A DNA stretch of 22,546 bases from the NCBI GenBank assembly GCA_031256125.1, contig JAIRRE010000054.1:1-22546 (forward strand). The letters are read 5' to 3'. Below the pieces are notes generated by a model. That model was not told the origin of the DNA. It worked only from the letters and a program-made list of their open reading frames with translations, and did not search any database. The DNA is from Burkholderiaceae bacterium. GTDB taxonomy: Bacteria; Pseudomonadota; Gammaproteobacteria; Burkholderiales; Burkholderiaceae_C. The position numbers and the translations under genes were made by a program. Positions 17,092-22,465 of this stretch are shown in pieces (positions within the stretch are counted from its first letter, which is position 1; each line of letters starts with the position of its first letter).

Positions 17092-17430
17092 ATGAATCAA
17101 TCCCAAAGCTACTACCAACGCCACATCTTCTTTTGCCTCAACCAGCGCGAGGACGGGCGCGATTGTTGTGCCAGCCACGGCGCACGGGCCGCGTTCGAGC
17201 ACTGCAAGGTGCGCGTCAAGGCGCTGGGGCTGTCCGGCCCCGGTCAGGTGCGGGTCAATCAGGCCGGGTGTCTGGATCGCTGCGCCGGCACGCCGGTGGC
17301 GGTGGTGTATCCCGAAGCGGTCTGGTACACCTACACCGGCACGGACGATATTGACGAGATCATCGAATCGCATTTGCAAAACGGCCAACCGGTCGAGCGC
17401 CTGCGACTGGCCCCGGACGTGGGGCATTGA
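17092..17430 (+). CDS. Thioredoxin-fold (2Fe-2S) ferredoxin
   Basis: 112 residues from the ATG at 17092. The pattern RHIFFCLNQREDGRDCC, then VRVNQAGCLDRCAGTPVAVVYPE, matches stand-alone 2Fe-2S ferredoxins of the thioredoxin-like family (as in Aquifex Fd4 and the NuoE C-terminal domain). Cluster ligands are expected among the Cys of FFC, the DCC pair, and the GCLDRC pair. It is presumably a soluble one-electron carrier; its redox partner is not indicated. An upstream in-frame ATG at 17083 adds three residues. The stop at 17428-17430 is only 1 bp before the GTG of the hydrolase gene, implying a shared transcript and coupled translation. Confidence 0.85.
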   Translation: MNQSQSYYQRHIFFCLNQREDGRDCCASHGARAAFEHCKVRVKALGLSGPGQVRVNQAGCLDRCAGTPVAVVYPEAVWYTYTGTDDIDEIIESHLQNGQPVERLRLAPDVGH

Positions 17431-17431
17431 G

Positions 17432-18076
17432 GTGGCCGGCGCCAGTCAAAGCCTGGCGCTGCACGGCGCCGCGGGCATTATCGAAGCGCTGGTCGAGGCC
17501 CCGGATACCGGAATTTGGCCCACCCCCATTGGCACTGCGGTGATTGCGCACCCGCACCCGTTGTTTGGCGGAACGATGCACAACAAAGTGGTGCAGACGC
17601 TGGCGCGCGCCTATTTGTATTGCGGTTGGCGCGCGGTGCGGTTCAATTTTCGCGGCGTAGGCGCCAGCGCGGGCGAGCACGACGAGGGCCGAGGCGAGGC
17701 AGGCGATATGTTGGCGGTGGTCGAGCAAACTACGCCGCCTGGCGTTGCGCTGGCAATTGCCGGATTTTCGTTTGGCGCTTATGTGGCGGCGCAAGTTATT
17801 GCGCGGCTACACCTGGATCGCGCCATTGCGTCGGTGGCGTTGATAGGCACGGCAGCGTCGCGCTTTGCAGTGCCGGCAATACCCAATGACTTGCACGCGC
17901 GCGTACTGACCGTGCATGGCGAACAGGACGATACGGTACCGCTGGCGGCGGTGATGGATTGGGCGCGCCCGCAGTCGCTGCCCATCACCGTGGTGCCTGG
18001 GGTGGGACATTTTTTTCATGGGCAATTGCCGCTTTTAAAAACGCTGGTCACGCGGCACGTGCGCGGCTGCGCGTAG
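17432..18076 (+). CDS. Small alpha/beta hydrolase (dienelactone-hydrolase-like esterase fold)
   Basis: 214 residues from a GTG at 17432. The start is inferred: the frame has no ATG near the conserved region, and this GTG lies 1 bp after the ferredoxin stop. The HPHPLFGGTMHNKVV block (40-54) and FNFRGVGASAGEHDEGRGE (71-89) mark the family usually annotated as alpha/beta hydrolase or YfbK-like CocE/NonD esterase. The nucleophile elbow is GFSFG with S113, the acid is D166 or D167 in HGEQDDTVP, and the histidine is H193 in GVGHFFHG. No signal peptide, so cytoplasmic. Substrate unknown. Upstream, the same frame is open inside the ferredoxin gene, but that is overlap. Confidence 0.82.
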   Translation: MAGASQSLALHGAAGIIEALVEAPDTGIWPTPIGTAVIAHPHPLFGGTMHNKVVQTLARAYLYCGWRAVRFNFRGVGASAGEHDEGRGEAGDMLAVVEQTTPPGVALAIAGFSFGAYVAAQVIARLHLDRAIASVALIGTAASRFAVPAIPNDLHARVLTVHGEQDDTVPLAAVMDWARPQSLPITVVPGVGHFFHGQLPLLKTLVTRHVRGCA

Positions 18077-18080
18077 GGTG

Positions 18081-18156
18081 GATAAAGCCCGATAAAACCC
18101 GTTGGCGCGGCGATACCCGGAGGTACCGCGATATTTGCAACGAGGCGAAAATCGCC
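18081..18156. repeat. Structured spacer between hydrolase and dacA
   Basis: The spacer starts with a near-perfect tandem repeat (GATAAAGCCC then GATAAAACCC, 18081-18100). Next comes a hairpin in which CGCGG (18106-18110) and TACC (18114-18117) pair with GGTA (18122-18125) and CCGCG (18126-18130) around a CGGA loop. A smaller hairpin, GGCGA/TCGCC, follows at 18144-18156. Neither has a T-run. It may end the hydrolase transcript or be the remnant of a dispersed intergenic repeat. Confidence 0.4.
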
Positions 18157-18196
18157 CAAAGCCAGGATATGCCAGCCGTGCCGGACTTATGCAGTA

Positions 18197-18226
18197 TTGC
18201 TCTGGGCTACTTTTTGTGTGTAGCAT
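18197..18226 (+). promoter_or_regulatory. Predicted dacA promoter, start codon 7 nt after -10
   Basis: TTGCTC (18197-18202) and TAGCAT (18221-18226) are separated by 18 nt. The ATG follows the -10 after 7 nt without a Shine-Dalgarno sequence, so the mRNA may be leaderless. Confidence 0.4.
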
Positions 18227-18233
18227 CCGCTCC

Positions 18234-19475
18234 ATGAAACATTTCCGCCTGGCGCTTGCCGCGCCCTTTCTGGCTAGCGCTTTGGCTCTGGCCGTTTCGC
18301 TACCCGCCAACGCAGCTTCGGCGTCCGCGCCGGTAAATCCTAAGCCTGCCGCCATCGCATCGGCAGAACCGTCGGCGTCTGTTCTGCCACAGCCACCCAA
18401 AATTGCGGCCAAAGCGTATCTGCTGGTTGATGTGACCGCGGATGGGCGGCAACTGGCGGGTAGCAACATCGATCAGCCTGTAGAACCAGCCTCGTTGACC
18501 AAGCTGATGACCGCGTATCTGGTATTCAATGCCCTGCGCGCCAAACAAATCAGCCTGACGCAAACCTGTACGGTCTCCGAACAGGCGTGGAAAACACCCG
18601 GTTCGCGCATGTTCATTTCCCCTAATACACAGGTACCGGTGGAAGACCTTATTAAGGGCATGATCGTTCAATCGGGTAACGACGCCACAATAACGCTTGC
18701 GGAATGCGTCGGCGGCACGGTGGAGCACTTTGTGCAGATGATGAACGACCAGGCGCGGACGCTGGGCATGAACGCCACCCTCTACAAAAACCCCGACGGC
18801 TTGCCCGCGCCCGGCCACTTGACCACCGCGCTTGACTTGGCCACATTAGCTCAGCGCCTAATGTACGACTTCCCTGAAGACATGCATTACTACGCCATCA
18901 AAAAATACTACTATCCCGGAACGCCAATAAGCAACCAAAATAATCGCAATATTTTGCTACTACGCGATCCAAGCGTCGATGGCCTGAAAACCGGCTATAC
19001 CGACGCGGCGGGCTATTGTTTGGTGGTCACCGCCAAACGGGACTTTCCTGGTCTAGGTGGACGACGGTTGCTTTCGGTGTTATTGGGCGCGATCAGTGAA
19101 CAGGGGCGAGCCAACGAGTCGCAAAAACTCCTTAATTGGGGCTATACCGCGTATGAAGATGTCAAACTTTTTGACGCTGGACAACCTGCGGCCACCCCCA
19201 CTGTGTGGAAAGGAGCGTCGGGCATACTCAAACTTGGCCGCGCCGATCCTATTATTGTCGCCGTTCCAGCAGGCGATGCGTCCAAAATCAGCACCCAAAT
19301 CACTGGACCCGAACCGCTCATCGCTCCTTTTAAGCAAGGTCAACAAGTAGCCACACTTAAAGTAAAACTCGGCAAACAGGTTATCACTGAAGTACCATTA
19401 TTGGCGCTAGAAACAGTGGATGAAGCCGGTTTTCTGGGCCGCGCATGGGATGCGATGCGGCTGTGGATAAGATGA
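18234..19475 (+). CDS. dacA: D-alanyl-D-alanine carboxypeptidase (PBP5/6 type)
   Basis: 413 residues from the ATG at 18234, chosen because it begins a clear Sec signal peptide (MKHFRLALAAPFLASALALA, then VSLPANA with predicted cleavage after residue 27). An Ala/Pro/Ser-rich linker follows. The penicillin-binding motifs are SLTK (S87-K90), SGN (147-149) and KTG (252-254), the set of S11 family DD-carboxypeptidases. A PBP5 C-terminal beta domain covers about 305-395, and the last residues (GFLGRAWDAMRLWIR) form an amphipathic helix for membrane attachment. It trims the terminal D-Ala of peptidoglycan stem peptides in the periplasm. GC content drops markedly in the second half (about 35-43% in sampled 60-base blocks), leading into the AT-rich island. 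A consensus DnaA box overlaps its last codons (19462-19470). Confidence 0.94.
   Translation: MKHFRLALAAPFLASALALAVSLPANAASASAPVNPKPAAIASAEPSASVLPQPPKIAAKAYLLVDVTADGRQLAGSNIDQPVEPASLTKLMTAYLVFNALRAKQISLTQTCTVSEQAWKTPGSRMFISPNTQVPVEDLIKGMIVQSGNDATITLAECVGGTVEHFVQMMNDQARTLGMNATLYKNPDGLPAPGHLTTALDLATLAQRLMYDFPEDMHYYAIKKYYYPGTPISNQNNRNILLLRDPSVDGLKTGYTDAAGYCLVVTAKRDFPGLGGRRLLSVLLGAISEQGRANESQKLLNWGYTAYEDVKLFDAGQPAATPTVWKGASGILKLGRADPIIVAVPAGDASKISTQITGPEPLIAPFKQGQQVATLKVKLGKQVITEVPLLALETVDEAGFLGRAWDAMRLWIR
19462..19470 (-). promoter_or_regulatory. Consensus DnaA box at the end of dacA
   Basis: TGTGGATAA on the plus strand is TTATCCACA on the minus strand, an exact match to the classical DnaA box. 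It lies within the last codons of dacA, so it could be coincidence, but it shares orientation with the box at 20214-20222. Confidence 0.4.
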
Positions 19476-19540
19476 TTAGTTAGCACGTTGATGTCTATGT
19501 GTATTTGATGGCCGAGTACAGTGTATCAATTCTTGTGTTG

Positions 19541-19556
19541 TGCGGATAATTAGAAT
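19541..19556 (+). promoter_or_regulatory. Possible apt promoter overlapped by a DnaA-box variant
   Basis: GATAAT (19545-19550) and TAGAAT (19551-19556) are both -10-like and lie 33-39 nt before the apt ATG. TGCGGATAA (19541-19549), one base off the DnaA box consensus on the minus strand, overlaps the first. No good -35 is visible. Confidence 0.3.
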
Positions 19557-19589
19557 CTGTATTTTATTAATCACCTACCTTTTTACATT

Positions 19590-20147
19590 ATGAATCAACC
19601 ACCTACATATATTACAGACTACCTGCGTCAATATATCCGTACTGTGCCTGATTGGCCAACTCCGGGTGTGCAGTTCCGTGATATTACACCGCTATTACAG
19701 AATCCACGGGTATTACGTGTACTTATTAACACCTTTATTTTACGATATATGGAACCTGGGATGCGCCCAGATATGATAGCAGGGTTGGATGCGCGTGGAT
19801 TTATTATTGGTTCGATATTAGCATATGAGTTGGGGTTGGGTTTTGTACCGATCCGCAAAAAAGGTAAACTTCCTTTTACAACGGTAGCAGAGACCTATGA
19901 ATTAGAATATGGTAGTGCCACTGTAGAATTACACGTGGACGCTATTCAACCGGGTCAACGCGTAATACTGATAGATGATTTAATTGCTACTGGTGGCACC
20001 ATGATAGCAGGTCAACGTTTATTAGAAAAATTAGGTGCGCATGTGATTGAGGGCGCAGCTATTGTTAATTTACCCAGCCTGGGTGGTTCTGCGCGCTTAT
20101 ATACATCAGGTTTACCGTTATTTATATTAGTGAATTATATAAATTAA
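19590..20147 (+). CDS. apt: Adenine phosphoribosyltransferase
   Basis: 185 residues, the typical Apt size. The N-terminal [21 protein letters not shown] (16-36) is the family purine-binding region, [11 protein letters not shown] (64-74) and PIRKKGKLP (87-95) are conserved, and the PRPP-binding motif is [14 protein letters not shown] (125-138). The enzyme salvages adenine to AMP in the cytoplasm. The gene is strikingly AT-rich (about 42% GC by hand count of six blocks, against roughly 60% or more elsewhere) and uses many A/T-ending codons (TTA, ATA, AAT), although the protein looks intact. Its last codons form the first of two tandem AT-only 13-mers. The ATG is the only candidate at the family N-terminus; no good Shine-Dalgarno sequence precedes it. 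Confidence 0.95.
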
Positions 20148-20159
20148 TAATATAAATTA
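20134..20159. repeat. Tandem AT-only 13-mers (unwinding-element-like)
   Basis: ATTATATAAATTA (20134-20146) is followed directly by ATAATATAAATTA (20147-20159); they match at 12 of 13 positions and contain no G or C. The first overlaps the apt stop codon. AT-rich 13-mers beside DnaA boxes are typical of origin unwinding elements. Confidence 0.5.
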
Positions 20160-20547
20160 CAACACTTTTAAATATTAACTACCGATTCCATTGACTGTGT
20201 ACATCATGTAGGTTGTGGATAAATTATGAATAAACTTAAACTTATCCACAACCCAACATAGAACATCCAAGTTGTTCCTATTCCTCCCGCTTTCTTAAAG
20301 CACATCACCCACAGTCGATAATCACAACTAAGTTGATGTTTTGTAAAGAATTTTTCTAATTATACCCAAAACAGCACAACATCTACTATCCAATCCTAAT
20401 TTAAGAAGTAAAACATAAGATAGTTGTTCAGCAACCTCGAACGTGGACGCAACACTCTAGCAAAGAGGAGAGGCTCCTATCTTGAGTCAACGGCTGAAAC
20501 GTCCTGCCACTGCTAAGATCGCTAGGCTTCTTTCAATCACTCAACCC
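20148..20547. other. AT-rich 400-bp intergenic region between apt and minC
   Basis: No gene is seen. GC content is about 33, 30, 42, 28 and 40% in successive 60-base blocks from 20161. It holds the second AT-only 13-mer, an inverted pair of consensus DnaA boxes (20211-20253), further A/T tracts (20340-20410), and a GAGGAGAGG Shine-Dalgarno-like sequence at 20465-20473 before an in-frame TTG (20482) of minC. A weak -35/-10 pair, TTGATG (20333-20338) and TAATTA (20357-20362) with an 18-nt spacer, could serve minCDE. No tRNA, insertion-sequence end or long ORF was found. Confidence 0.7.
20211..20253. promoter_or_regulatory. Inverted pair of consensus DnaA boxes
   Basis: GGTTGTGGATAA (20211-20222) and TTATCCACAACC (20242-20253) are perfect reverse complements, 12 bp each, separated by 19 AT-rich bases. 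Each contains an exact TTATCCACA DnaA box: minus orientation at 20214-20222, plus orientation at 20242-20250. The pair could bind DnaA as an origin, titration or regulatory site, or could be a transcript hairpin. Confidence 0.55.
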
Positions 20548-21309
20548 ATGCCCATCACTCTCTTAGGCGCTACCCCTGCTACGTTCGAGATCAAGAGTGC
20601 AAGTCTGCCTTTGTTGACGTTGCGTTTGAAGTCAGCAGATATGAATGTGCTGACAACCGAGTTTGCTGCTCACTACGATGCCACCCCTGACTTTTTTGAA
20701 GATGATCTATTACTGATTGATCTGGCGCATCTTCCTGAGGACACAACAACGGTGGACTTCACACGGTTGAAGGCATTGTTGATGCACTATCGTTTACAGC
20801 CTATTGCCGTAACAGCGGGTAGACCTGAATTCATGGCGGCAGCGTTGCAAGCAGATTTGCCTGCTGCGCCATCAGGTTGGCGTGAGATGCAGTCACAACA
20901 GCGTTCAGCAACACCTGTACCGCAAGCGATATCGCCGGAACTCATAACAGACCTCACGACTGTACAAGGCGCATTAATAGTTAATAAACCTTTACGTTCC
21001 GGCCAACAGGTTTATGCACGTGGACGTGATCTGGTGTTGTTAGCTGTATGTAATCCAGGTGCGGAAGCTATTGCTGATGGACATATTCATATTTACGCAC
21101 CGATGCGTGGGCGTGCTATCGCTGGTGCACGCGGCTGGAATGAGGCGCGTATCTTTGCGTTGGATATGCGGCCTGAACTGGTTTCTATTGCGGGTATCTA
21201 TCGTACTAGTGAACAAGGCTTGGCGCCAGAAGTCTGGGGTCGTGCTGCAACAGTACGCTTGGCCGCAACGGCAGACCGTGATACGCTAGTCTTTGAGCCG
21301 TTGACTTGA
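20548..21309 (+). CDS. minC: Septum site-determining protein MinC
   Basis: 253 residues from the ATG at 20548. The N-terminal domain begins ATPATFEIKSASLPLLTLRL, the usual start of betaproteobacterial MinC, and includes DFFEDDLLLIDLAHLP; this domain blocks FtsZ. The C-terminal beta-helix domain (about 140-250) contains LIVNKPLRSGQQVYARGRDLVLLAVCNPGAEAIADGHIHIYAPMRGRAIAGARG, which binds MinD. No Shine-Dalgarno sequence precedes this ATG. An in-frame TTG at 20482 does have GGAGAGG 8 nt upstream and would add 22 residues, so the start is uncertain; family length favours the ATG. It is the first gene of minC-minD-minE. Codon use is more AT-rich than in genes before 18 kb. Confidence 0.92.
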   Translation: MPITLLGATPATFEIKSASLPLLTLRLKSADMNVLTTEFAAHYDATPDFFEDDLLLIDLAHLPEDTTTVDFTRLKALLMHYRLQPIAVTAGRPEFMAAALQADLPAAPSGWREMQSQQRSATPVPQAISPELITDLTTVQGALIVNKPLRSGQQVYARGRDLVLLAVCNPGAEAIADGHIHIYAPMRGRAIAGARGWNEARIFALDMRPELVSIAGIYRTSEQGLAPEVWGRAATVRLAATADRDTLVFEPLT

Positions 21310-21364
21310 CCAGGCTATCTCAATCTATTTAAACTCGTTCCCATATTTGCAAAAGAGGCGACTG

Positions 21365-22183
21365 ATGACAAAAATCGTGGTGGTGACTTCCGGTAAAGGT
21401 GGTGTGGGTAAGACCACAACCAGCGCCGCCTTCGCATCCGGCTTGGCGCTCAAAGGCCATAAAACAGCGGTGATCGACTTCGATGTTGGTTTGCGTAATC
21501 TGGACCTCATCATGGGTTGTGAGCGCCGTGTGGTCTATGACCTCATCAACGTTATTCAGGGTGAGGCCAACCTTCATCAGGCGCTCATCAAAGACAAGCA
21601 AAGCGATAACCTGTCGATCCTAGCTGCCAGCCAGACGCGTGACAAGGAAGCGCTGAAGCAGGAAGGTGTAGAAAAAGTTCTTAAAGAACTTGCTAATATA
21701 GGTTTTGAGTACATCATTTGCGATTCGCCGGCGGGAATTGAAACAGGCGCATTAATGGCTATGCACTTCGCTGATGAAGCATTAGTGGTAACCAACCCAG
21801 AAGTCTCCAGTGTGCGCGACTCGGACCGGATTCTGGGAATGCTGGGTAGTAAAACTGATCGAGCGCAAAAGGGTAAGGAACCTGTCAAGGAACATCTACT
21901 CATCACGCGCTACGATCCCAACCGCGTAGCTGATGGGCAAATGCTCAGCTTGACCGACATTCAGGACATCTTGCGCATCCCGCTCATCGGCGTGATTCCT
22001 GAAAGTGAAGCCATTCTGCAAGCTTCCAACCAAGGCTTGCCTGCGGTGTATCTGAAGGGAACCGACGTGGCAGGGGCGTACACCGATATGGTAGAGCGCT
22101 TTCTAGGCAACACCGATCTGCCGTTGCGCTTTACCGAAGCGGAAAAACCGGGCTTCTTTAAGCGCCTGTTCGGAGGGCGATAA
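21365..22183 (+). CDS. minD: Septum site-determining ATPase MinD
   Basis: 272 residues. The deviant Walker A motif is SGKGGVGKTT (9-18) with the signature lysine K11. DFDVGLRNLDL (38-48) and the Walker B-type YIICDSPAGIETGA block follow, together with VVTNPEVSSVRDSDRI. The C-terminus ends in an amphipathic helix (EKPGFFKRLFGGR), the membrane-targeting sequence. MinD binds membrane as an ATP dimer, recruits MinC and is released by MinE, giving pole-to-pole oscillation. The start MTKIVVVTSGKG has an AAAGAGG ribosome binding site at 21352-21358. It lies 55 bp after minC and 3 bp before minE. Confidence 0.97.
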   Translation: MTKIVVVTSGKGGVGKTTTSAAFASGLALKGHKTAVIDFDVGLRNLDLIMGCERRVVYDLINVIQGEANLHQALIKDKQSDNLSILAASQTRDKEALKQEGVEKVLKELANIGFEYIICDSPAGIETGALMAMHFADEALVVTNPEVSSVRDSDRILGMLGSKTDRAQKGKEPVKEHLLITRYDPNRVADGQMLSLTDIQDILRIPLIGVIPESEAILQASNQGLPAVYLKGTDVAGAYTDMVERFLGNTDLPLRFTEAEKPGFFKRLFGGR

Positions 22184-22186
22184 GCC

Positions 22187-22465
22187 ATGTCTTTCCTCTC
22201 CTTTTTTTTACGCGAAAAACAAAAGACAGCGGTGGTTGCCAAAGAGCGGCTGCAAATCATTCTGGCGCATGAACGTGTCGGACGTAACGCCAGCGAGCCG
22301 GACTACATGCTGGATCTGCAACGCGACTTGATTGCGGTGATTGGCAAGTACGTCAAGATCGACCCGAAGGACATCACGGTGAATCTGGAACGGCAAAAAG
22401 ATCTAGATGTGTTGGAAGTGAAAATCGAACTACCCGAAAAGTCCGACTCAAAAACAAATACCTGA
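22187..22465 (+). CDS. minE: Cell division topological specificity factor MinE
   Basis: 92 residues, the normal MinE size. The N-terminal [15 protein letters not shown] is the membrane-binding and MinD-contact region, [13 protein letters not shown] (18-30) is the conserved anti-MinCD helix, and [19 protein letters not shown] plus [22 protein letters not shown] form the topological-specificity domain. MinE triggers MinD ATP hydrolysis and keeps the division inhibitor away from midcell. A GGAGGG ribosome binding site (22172-22177) lies inside the end of minD, 9 nt before the ATG, and the genes are separated by 3 bp, so translation is probably coupled. No terminator is seen in the remaining 81 bp. 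Confidence 0.96.

Follow-up and report, generated by a model that had tools for sequence, protein, structure and literature searches.

Introduction

The dnaA gene is often taken as the place to look for bacterial replication origins, DnaA-box clusters situated outside dnaA are exemplified by datA and DARS of Escherichia coli, and CTACTA is the complement of DnaA-trios. Origins located far from dnaA have been mentioned for several other bacteria (PMC6323995, PMC10225481), and the origin of chromosome 1 of Cupriavidus metallidurans CH34 is displaced from this gene (PMC2864759). The E. coli type of oriC has a gidA-mioC location (PMC10225481), and datA and DARS2 are both named in a further report (PMC13036160). 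For origins with a basal unwinding system (BUS), as in Bacillus subtilis, the published search rule calls for a DnaA box followed by three or more DnaA-trios, with no more than 16 bp of spacer between them (PMC8287927).

Here, we have analyzed an entire contig (JAIRRE010000054.1, C142; 22,546 nucleotides, hereafter the window) from a Burkholderiaceae draft genome, G000, of 2,046,083 bp in 365 contigs and 77.7% complete. The gap between apt and minC contains a DnaA-box unit of ~190 bp which is conserved across the family and present in one copy in the draft. As judged by sequence comparison with relatives, this module is very probably the chromosomal replication origin (oriC) of G000.

Anatomy of the module

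The features on which the analysis relies are given below. The module core was delimited with R1, a sequence-only model of 197 positions made from 28 sequences of 27 relatives with G000 held out; box offsets are counted from window position 20242.

18102-19475, open reading frame of dacA (ORF list, Pfam support)
19590-20147, plus strand, apt, left neighbour of the module in G000 (ORF list, Pfam support)
20210-20388, plus strand, core of the predicted oriC module (R1 match, 66.9 bits, E 2.1e-20, model positions 15-193 of 197)
20214-20222, minus strand, exact DnaA box at offset -28, at the same alignment place in relatives
20242-20250, plus strand, exact DnaA box at offset 0, the central box of the module, conserved in the alignment
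20305-20313, plus strand, degenerate DnaA box at offset +63 with 2 mismatches, aligned with the relatives' box
20360-20368, plus strand, degenerate DnaA box at offset +118 with 2 mismatches, closest to the trios and aligned with the relatives' box
20369-20382, plus strand, 14-bp spacer from box to trios
20383-20388, plus strand, CTACTA, two clean DnaA-trios (relatives have mostly CTACTAC, then more trios)
20389-20425, plus strand, predicted DNA unwinding element, 76% AT (AT content also peaks at this offset in the 29 sequences from relatives)
20482-21309, plus strand, minC, adjoining the module (ORF list, Pfam support)
21347-22183, open reading frame of minD, after minC (Pfam support)
22187-22465, minE, after minD

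The original prediction had described an origin-like module between dacA and minC, and the sites it listed are all present: the exact box TTATCCACA occurs three times, at 19462-19470 (minus strand), 20214-20222 (minus) and 20242-20250 (plus), a near-match with one mismatch lies at 19541-19549 (minus), a perfect 12-bp inverted repeat is formed by 20211-20222 and 20242-20253, and two AT-only 13-mers, 20134-20146 and 20147-20159, differ from each other at one position. Such a density of boxes was said to be unusual, and it is. Indeed, eight boxes with at most one mismatch are found in the window for 2.18 expected, a number reached in 0 of 100 shuffles, and three of the seven exact boxes of the 2.05-Mb draft are located there, another one lying directly upstream of dnaA on contig C130; by an arithmetic estimate, the chance that three of seven random sites fall within 800 bp is ~2e-5.

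The composition of the module proposed at first has nevertheless to be revised. Its inverted pair is conserved, but the 19462 box is located inside the 3' end of dacA, and neither this box nor the one at 19541 is retained as a module part, only the inverted pair belonging to the conserved unit. Regarding the 13-mers, the first one is inside the last codons of apt. Their assignment as the unwinding element is not supported: they lie on the apt side, overlapping the apt end, they have no counterpart in relatives, whose AT content is not raised at the corresponding offset, and the AT-rich region which is conserved is found at the other end of the module, towards minC. The apt-minC gap being 65% AT overall, a second and lineage-specific melting site at the apt-side 13-mers is conceivable.

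Measured against described origins, the module of G000 has a cluster of two exact boxes and two boxes with 2 mismatches at conserved positions (the +30 site having 4 mismatches and the -40 site being absent from this copy), and, by its sequence, an AT-rich element beside these boxes, predicted to unwind at 20389-20425. The distance from the last box to the trios is 14 bp for a limit of 16 bp in the BUS rule, with a box carrying 2 mismatches. Two aspects count against the oriC reading, namely the 2 mismatches in each of two boxes and the presence of two trios versus the three of the published rule (PMC8287927), longer runs being found in most relatives. In most aligned relatives, the central box reads TTATCCACAG and contains CACAG, while window positions 20242-20251 have A as the following base; CACAG is a methylated motif reported at Burkholderia cenocepacia origins (PMC7364216).

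Conservation across the family

A search for MinC was successful in 32 of 35 genomes, and boxes were then sought upstream of minC. Many genus members share one geometry there: a box on the minus strand is followed 28 or 40 bp on by a plus-strand box, with further plus-strand boxes ~63 and ~118 bp past the latter. Two members, G021 and G005, had no boxes at this place. The same geometry was present away from minC in other genera: in G053 (by mnmG), G031, G032, G035 (two copies) and G045. The 29 excised copies align near-gaplessly and 28 of them form the final alignment, a weak copy from G024 having been excluded from it and from R1. Aligned boxes are located at -40 and/or -28 on the minus strand and at 0, ~+30, +63 and +118 on the plus strand. 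In relatives, the +118 box is followed by a short spacer, by CTACTAC in most of them and then by an AT-rich stretch, in a fixed order. In 29 relative sequences, mean AT content reaches 0.72-0.74 in the two 20-bp windows which begin at +150 and +160, the maximum across offsets -200 to +390, with a background mostly of 0.3-0.5.

In the G000 draft, R1 has a single match, at 20210-20388, and none on three other contigs with exact boxes (C158, C203 and C320). That the boxes cluster by chance in DNA rich in AT, a reading to which the incidental look of the 19462 box and of the 13-mers lends something, is already refuted for the core module by the near-gapless alignment with relatives and by an E-value of 2.1e-20 from a model made without G000; its probability is negligible.

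Within a family sample, R1 matches 236 of 250 genomes (E <= 0.01), 216 of the 223 of good quality and 135 of 141 genera, or 228 of 242 genomes once the 8 training genomes are removed, with one to three matches per genome. The 14 family genomes out of 250 without a match count against the oriC reading. Matches were obtained in 26 of 100 genomes of an order sample and in 17 of 150 of a phylum sample, 3 being family members in each case, with best non-family scores of 44.6 and 24.8 bits, respectively; the module is thus characteristic of the family, with faint resemblances beyond it. Two or three copies are found within a few kb to 30 kb in G031, G032, G035, G011 and others, as though the origin had been duplicated.

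Genomic addresses of the module

In the genus, R1 matches 27 of 29 genomes, 22 of these 27 being training genomes which match by construction; the two others, G004 and G012, gave neither an R1 nor a MinC match. Whole-genome searches with R1 returned one copy each, except for G011 with three. The copy is directly upstream of minC and on the same strand in 25 of the 27 module-bearing genomes, a count which leans to minC as most training copies were found by searching upstream of this gene; the exceptions are G005 and G021, with 7 kb and 37 kb between module and minC, respectively. A MinC scan across genome contigs gave 3 loci, the closest one with 53% identity in a record labelled Desulfovibrionaceae (L273, WRJY01000169.1), a label which looks wrong.

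This address brings to the fore a DnaA-responsive control site of minCDE, at which DnaA, bound upstream of minC, would couple the division-site selector's expression to the initiation of replication. The 25 of 27 genus genomes speak for it, and G035 keeps the idea alive with a six-box cluster upstream of minC in the absence of an R1 match there. The six boxes of this cluster (L106:4807-5503) have at most one mismatch, share the minus strand and are partly inside a 431-bp tandem repeat, the module of that genome being ~1.8 Mb away. In other genera, however, the module is found between dnaA and dnaN, close to mnmG or next to other genes, and in G181, from another genus, it is upstream of minC in the opposite orientation; moreover, trios and a conserved AT-rich stretch are unnecessary for a control site. 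With so many other addresses, control of minCDE is highly unlikely as the main role of the module, although it might conceivably be a by-product.

Among the 30 R1 loci listed for the family, 3 have MinC as a neighbour, each of them in this genus, 2 are flanked by DnaA and DnaN (G286 and G261), and for the other 25, eight query genes gave no match within 1.5 kb. The module also lies in the dnaA-dnaN gap in G044 and 0.5 kb from mnmG in G053, and 4 of 9 loci from other families adjoin dnaA (G062, with dnaN too, G341, G076 and G349). R1 thereby matches DNA of the dnaA-dnaN gap, homology to which is a mark of oriC, in G286, G261, G044 and G062.

The apt side is different. In relatives, apt is 7-15 kb from dnaA in 11 of the 15 genomes having both genes on one contig, and neither DacA nor MinC was found within 1.5 kb of any of 29 relatives' apt loci. 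Since apt is located elsewhere in relatives, the dacA-apt-module order is either peculiar to G000 or an assembly fault. In G006, apt and minC are together on an 8.2-kb contig.

parS, dnaA and strand asymmetry

Distances to parS and dnaA were measured in eleven contiguous genomes (G003, G005, G010, G013, G023, G031, G032, G035, G045, G053 and G044), using for G045, which has a second R1 match, the listed one. In ten of them, 2-47 kb separate the best-scoring module copy from the closest parS-like site, and 53-505 kb separate it from dnaA (39 kb in the case of the G032 copy closest to this gene), dnaA being 50-515 kb from parS; the module is always closer to parS than dnaA is. The exception, G044, counts against the oriC reading, with a module beside dnaA and parS 1 Mb away. 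In ten relatives with both located, parS sites overlap or adjoin mnmG; the exceptions are an extra site with one mismatch, at another place in G013, and a site 11 kb away in G053.

The dnaA region has boxes of its own. An inverted pair of DnaA boxes with 49-50 bp spacing lies upstream of dnaA in G000 (L039:13173-13231) and in 12 of 29 relatives (L041-L060), and is probably involved in dnaA autoregulation. In G000 and these 12 relatives, picked for the box pair, the dnaA-upstream region has neither CTACTA/TAGTAG within 300 bp nor an AT peak, and R1 gave no match at dnaA in G000, G005, G010, G023 (upstream end) and G035. A box cluster away from a dnaA which keeps its own conserved inverted pair is what would be expected of a datA- or DARS-like site for DnaA titration or reactivation, with the true origin at dnaA. 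Against this stand the origin architecture of the module, the fact that the same module fills the dnaA-dnaN gap in some genera and the company of parS, which in 10 of 11 genomes goes with the module and not with dnaA. We consider such a titration or reactivation site to be highly unlikely.

In the draft, dnaA and parS are each on another contig (C130 and the small C270, respectively), neither with an R1 match, as could be the case if the window carried the origin of a chromid or plasmid. Nevertheless, housekeeping genes are present on this contig (L21, L27, obg, valS, galU and minCDE), which ends 2.2 kb past the module. The absence of a repA-like gene from the window, already pointed out in the original prediction, agrees with a Pfam scan of its 23 open reading frames, in which no replication-initiator family was found. 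The module is also chromosomal in single-contig relatives, making an extrachromosomal origin extremely improbable.

Strand asymmetry favours no site. In 20 windows for each of G010, G013 and G035, GC skew, 4-fold-site skew and gene-strand bias do not place the origin, and neither do GC skew and gene-strand bias in 20 windows of G044 or the KOPS-like octamer GGGNAGGG in that genome; skew is near zero in the sampled windows of all four. In G010, forward copies of this octamer prevail (44 to 13) on either side of the module and of dnaA, with no flip, and favour neither; in G035, its counts agree with a terminus near 4.3-4.6 Mb, a position opposite the module and dnaA alike, unlike minC. No dif site was found in 12 genomes with a gammaproteobacterial-type consensus.

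Base composition shows a trough of third-position GC over window positions 17198-22465, centred at ~20250, that is, on the module. On the left, values go from 0.81-0.85 (ubiB to valS) to 0.76 (galU), 0.71 before dacA, 0.63 then 0.54 in dacA and 0.30 in apt; on the right, they are 0.43 in minC, 0.58 in minD and 0.60 in minE. The trough is milder in G006 and absent beyond the core in ten other genomes; it may be the mutational footprint of an origin.

Among the roles put forward in the original prediction (displaced chromosomal origin, chromid origin, datA-like site or control of apt/minCDE), comparison strongly favours the first one, owing to the conserved module with its DnaA-trios and AT-rich region, to its nearness to parS and to the copies in the dnaA-dnaN gap and by mnmG, while the others fit worse.

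Proposed mechanism and implications

By analogy with origins that have been studied, we infer that DnaA would bind, melt and fire the origin at the module. It would occupy first the strong inverted pair (20214-20222 and 20242-20250) and next the weaker boxes toward minC, before crossing the 14-bp spacer from the 20360 box onto the trios at 20383, where it would engage one strand; the AT-rich stretch at ~20389-20425 would then open. The predicted opening site being just upstream of minC, a side effect on this gene is possible. A bolder and rather doubtful proposal is that the oriC of the family is a compact, movable cassette of ~190 bp, keeping its sequence and internal spacing while changing its address from genus to genus (dnaA-dnaN gap, mnmG, minC, other genes), usually near parS and not dnaA; in this genus, it would be fixed at the promoter end of minCDE, DnaA binding or firing there directly coupling the start of replication with division-site selection.

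If the module is oriC, looking for the origin at dnaA would, for many members of the family, miss it by tens to hundreds of kilobases, with consequences for growth rates estimated from read depth, for studies of strand bias and for arguments on gene dosage. A model of 197 positions locates the predicted origin even when the metagenome draft is fragmented and its relatives are nearly skewless. Moreover, owing to the stable minC address in one genus, it becomes possible to test whether replication initiation is linked to control of the division site.

Comparison with known systems

Among described origins, the BUS oriC of the B. subtilis type resembles the module in the order of its elements, in the spacer length and in the AT-rich stretch past the trios (PMC8287927), and some relatives also share its dnaA-dnaN location. 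It differs in that the neighbour of the module is minC, that degeneracy affects two of the module's boxes as well as its trio run, and that DnaA binding and melting are predictions for the module. The origin of C. metallidurans CH34 is another close parallel, with a GC-skew switch ~90 kb from dnaA by three perfect DnaA boxes within 213 nt (PMC2864759). Skew supports the CH34 site, whereas it is uninformative for the module, and the likeness is one of layout.

With the E. coli type of oriC by gidA/mnmG, the module has in common a box cluster off dnaA and, in G053, a place beside mnmG; the neighbour in the genus is minC, however, and the 13-mers of E. coli oriC are conserved, unlike those of the window. 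As for datA and DARS, they are likewise box clusters outside dnaA, but the module has trios and an AT-rich stretch and, in some genera, sits between dnaA and dnaN. No betaproteobacterial oriC next to minC appears in the titles and abstract openings of the literature matches listed, and DoriC may contain such a prediction. By its architecture, the module is an ordinary oriC, and its novelty is an unusual, genus-wide minC address.
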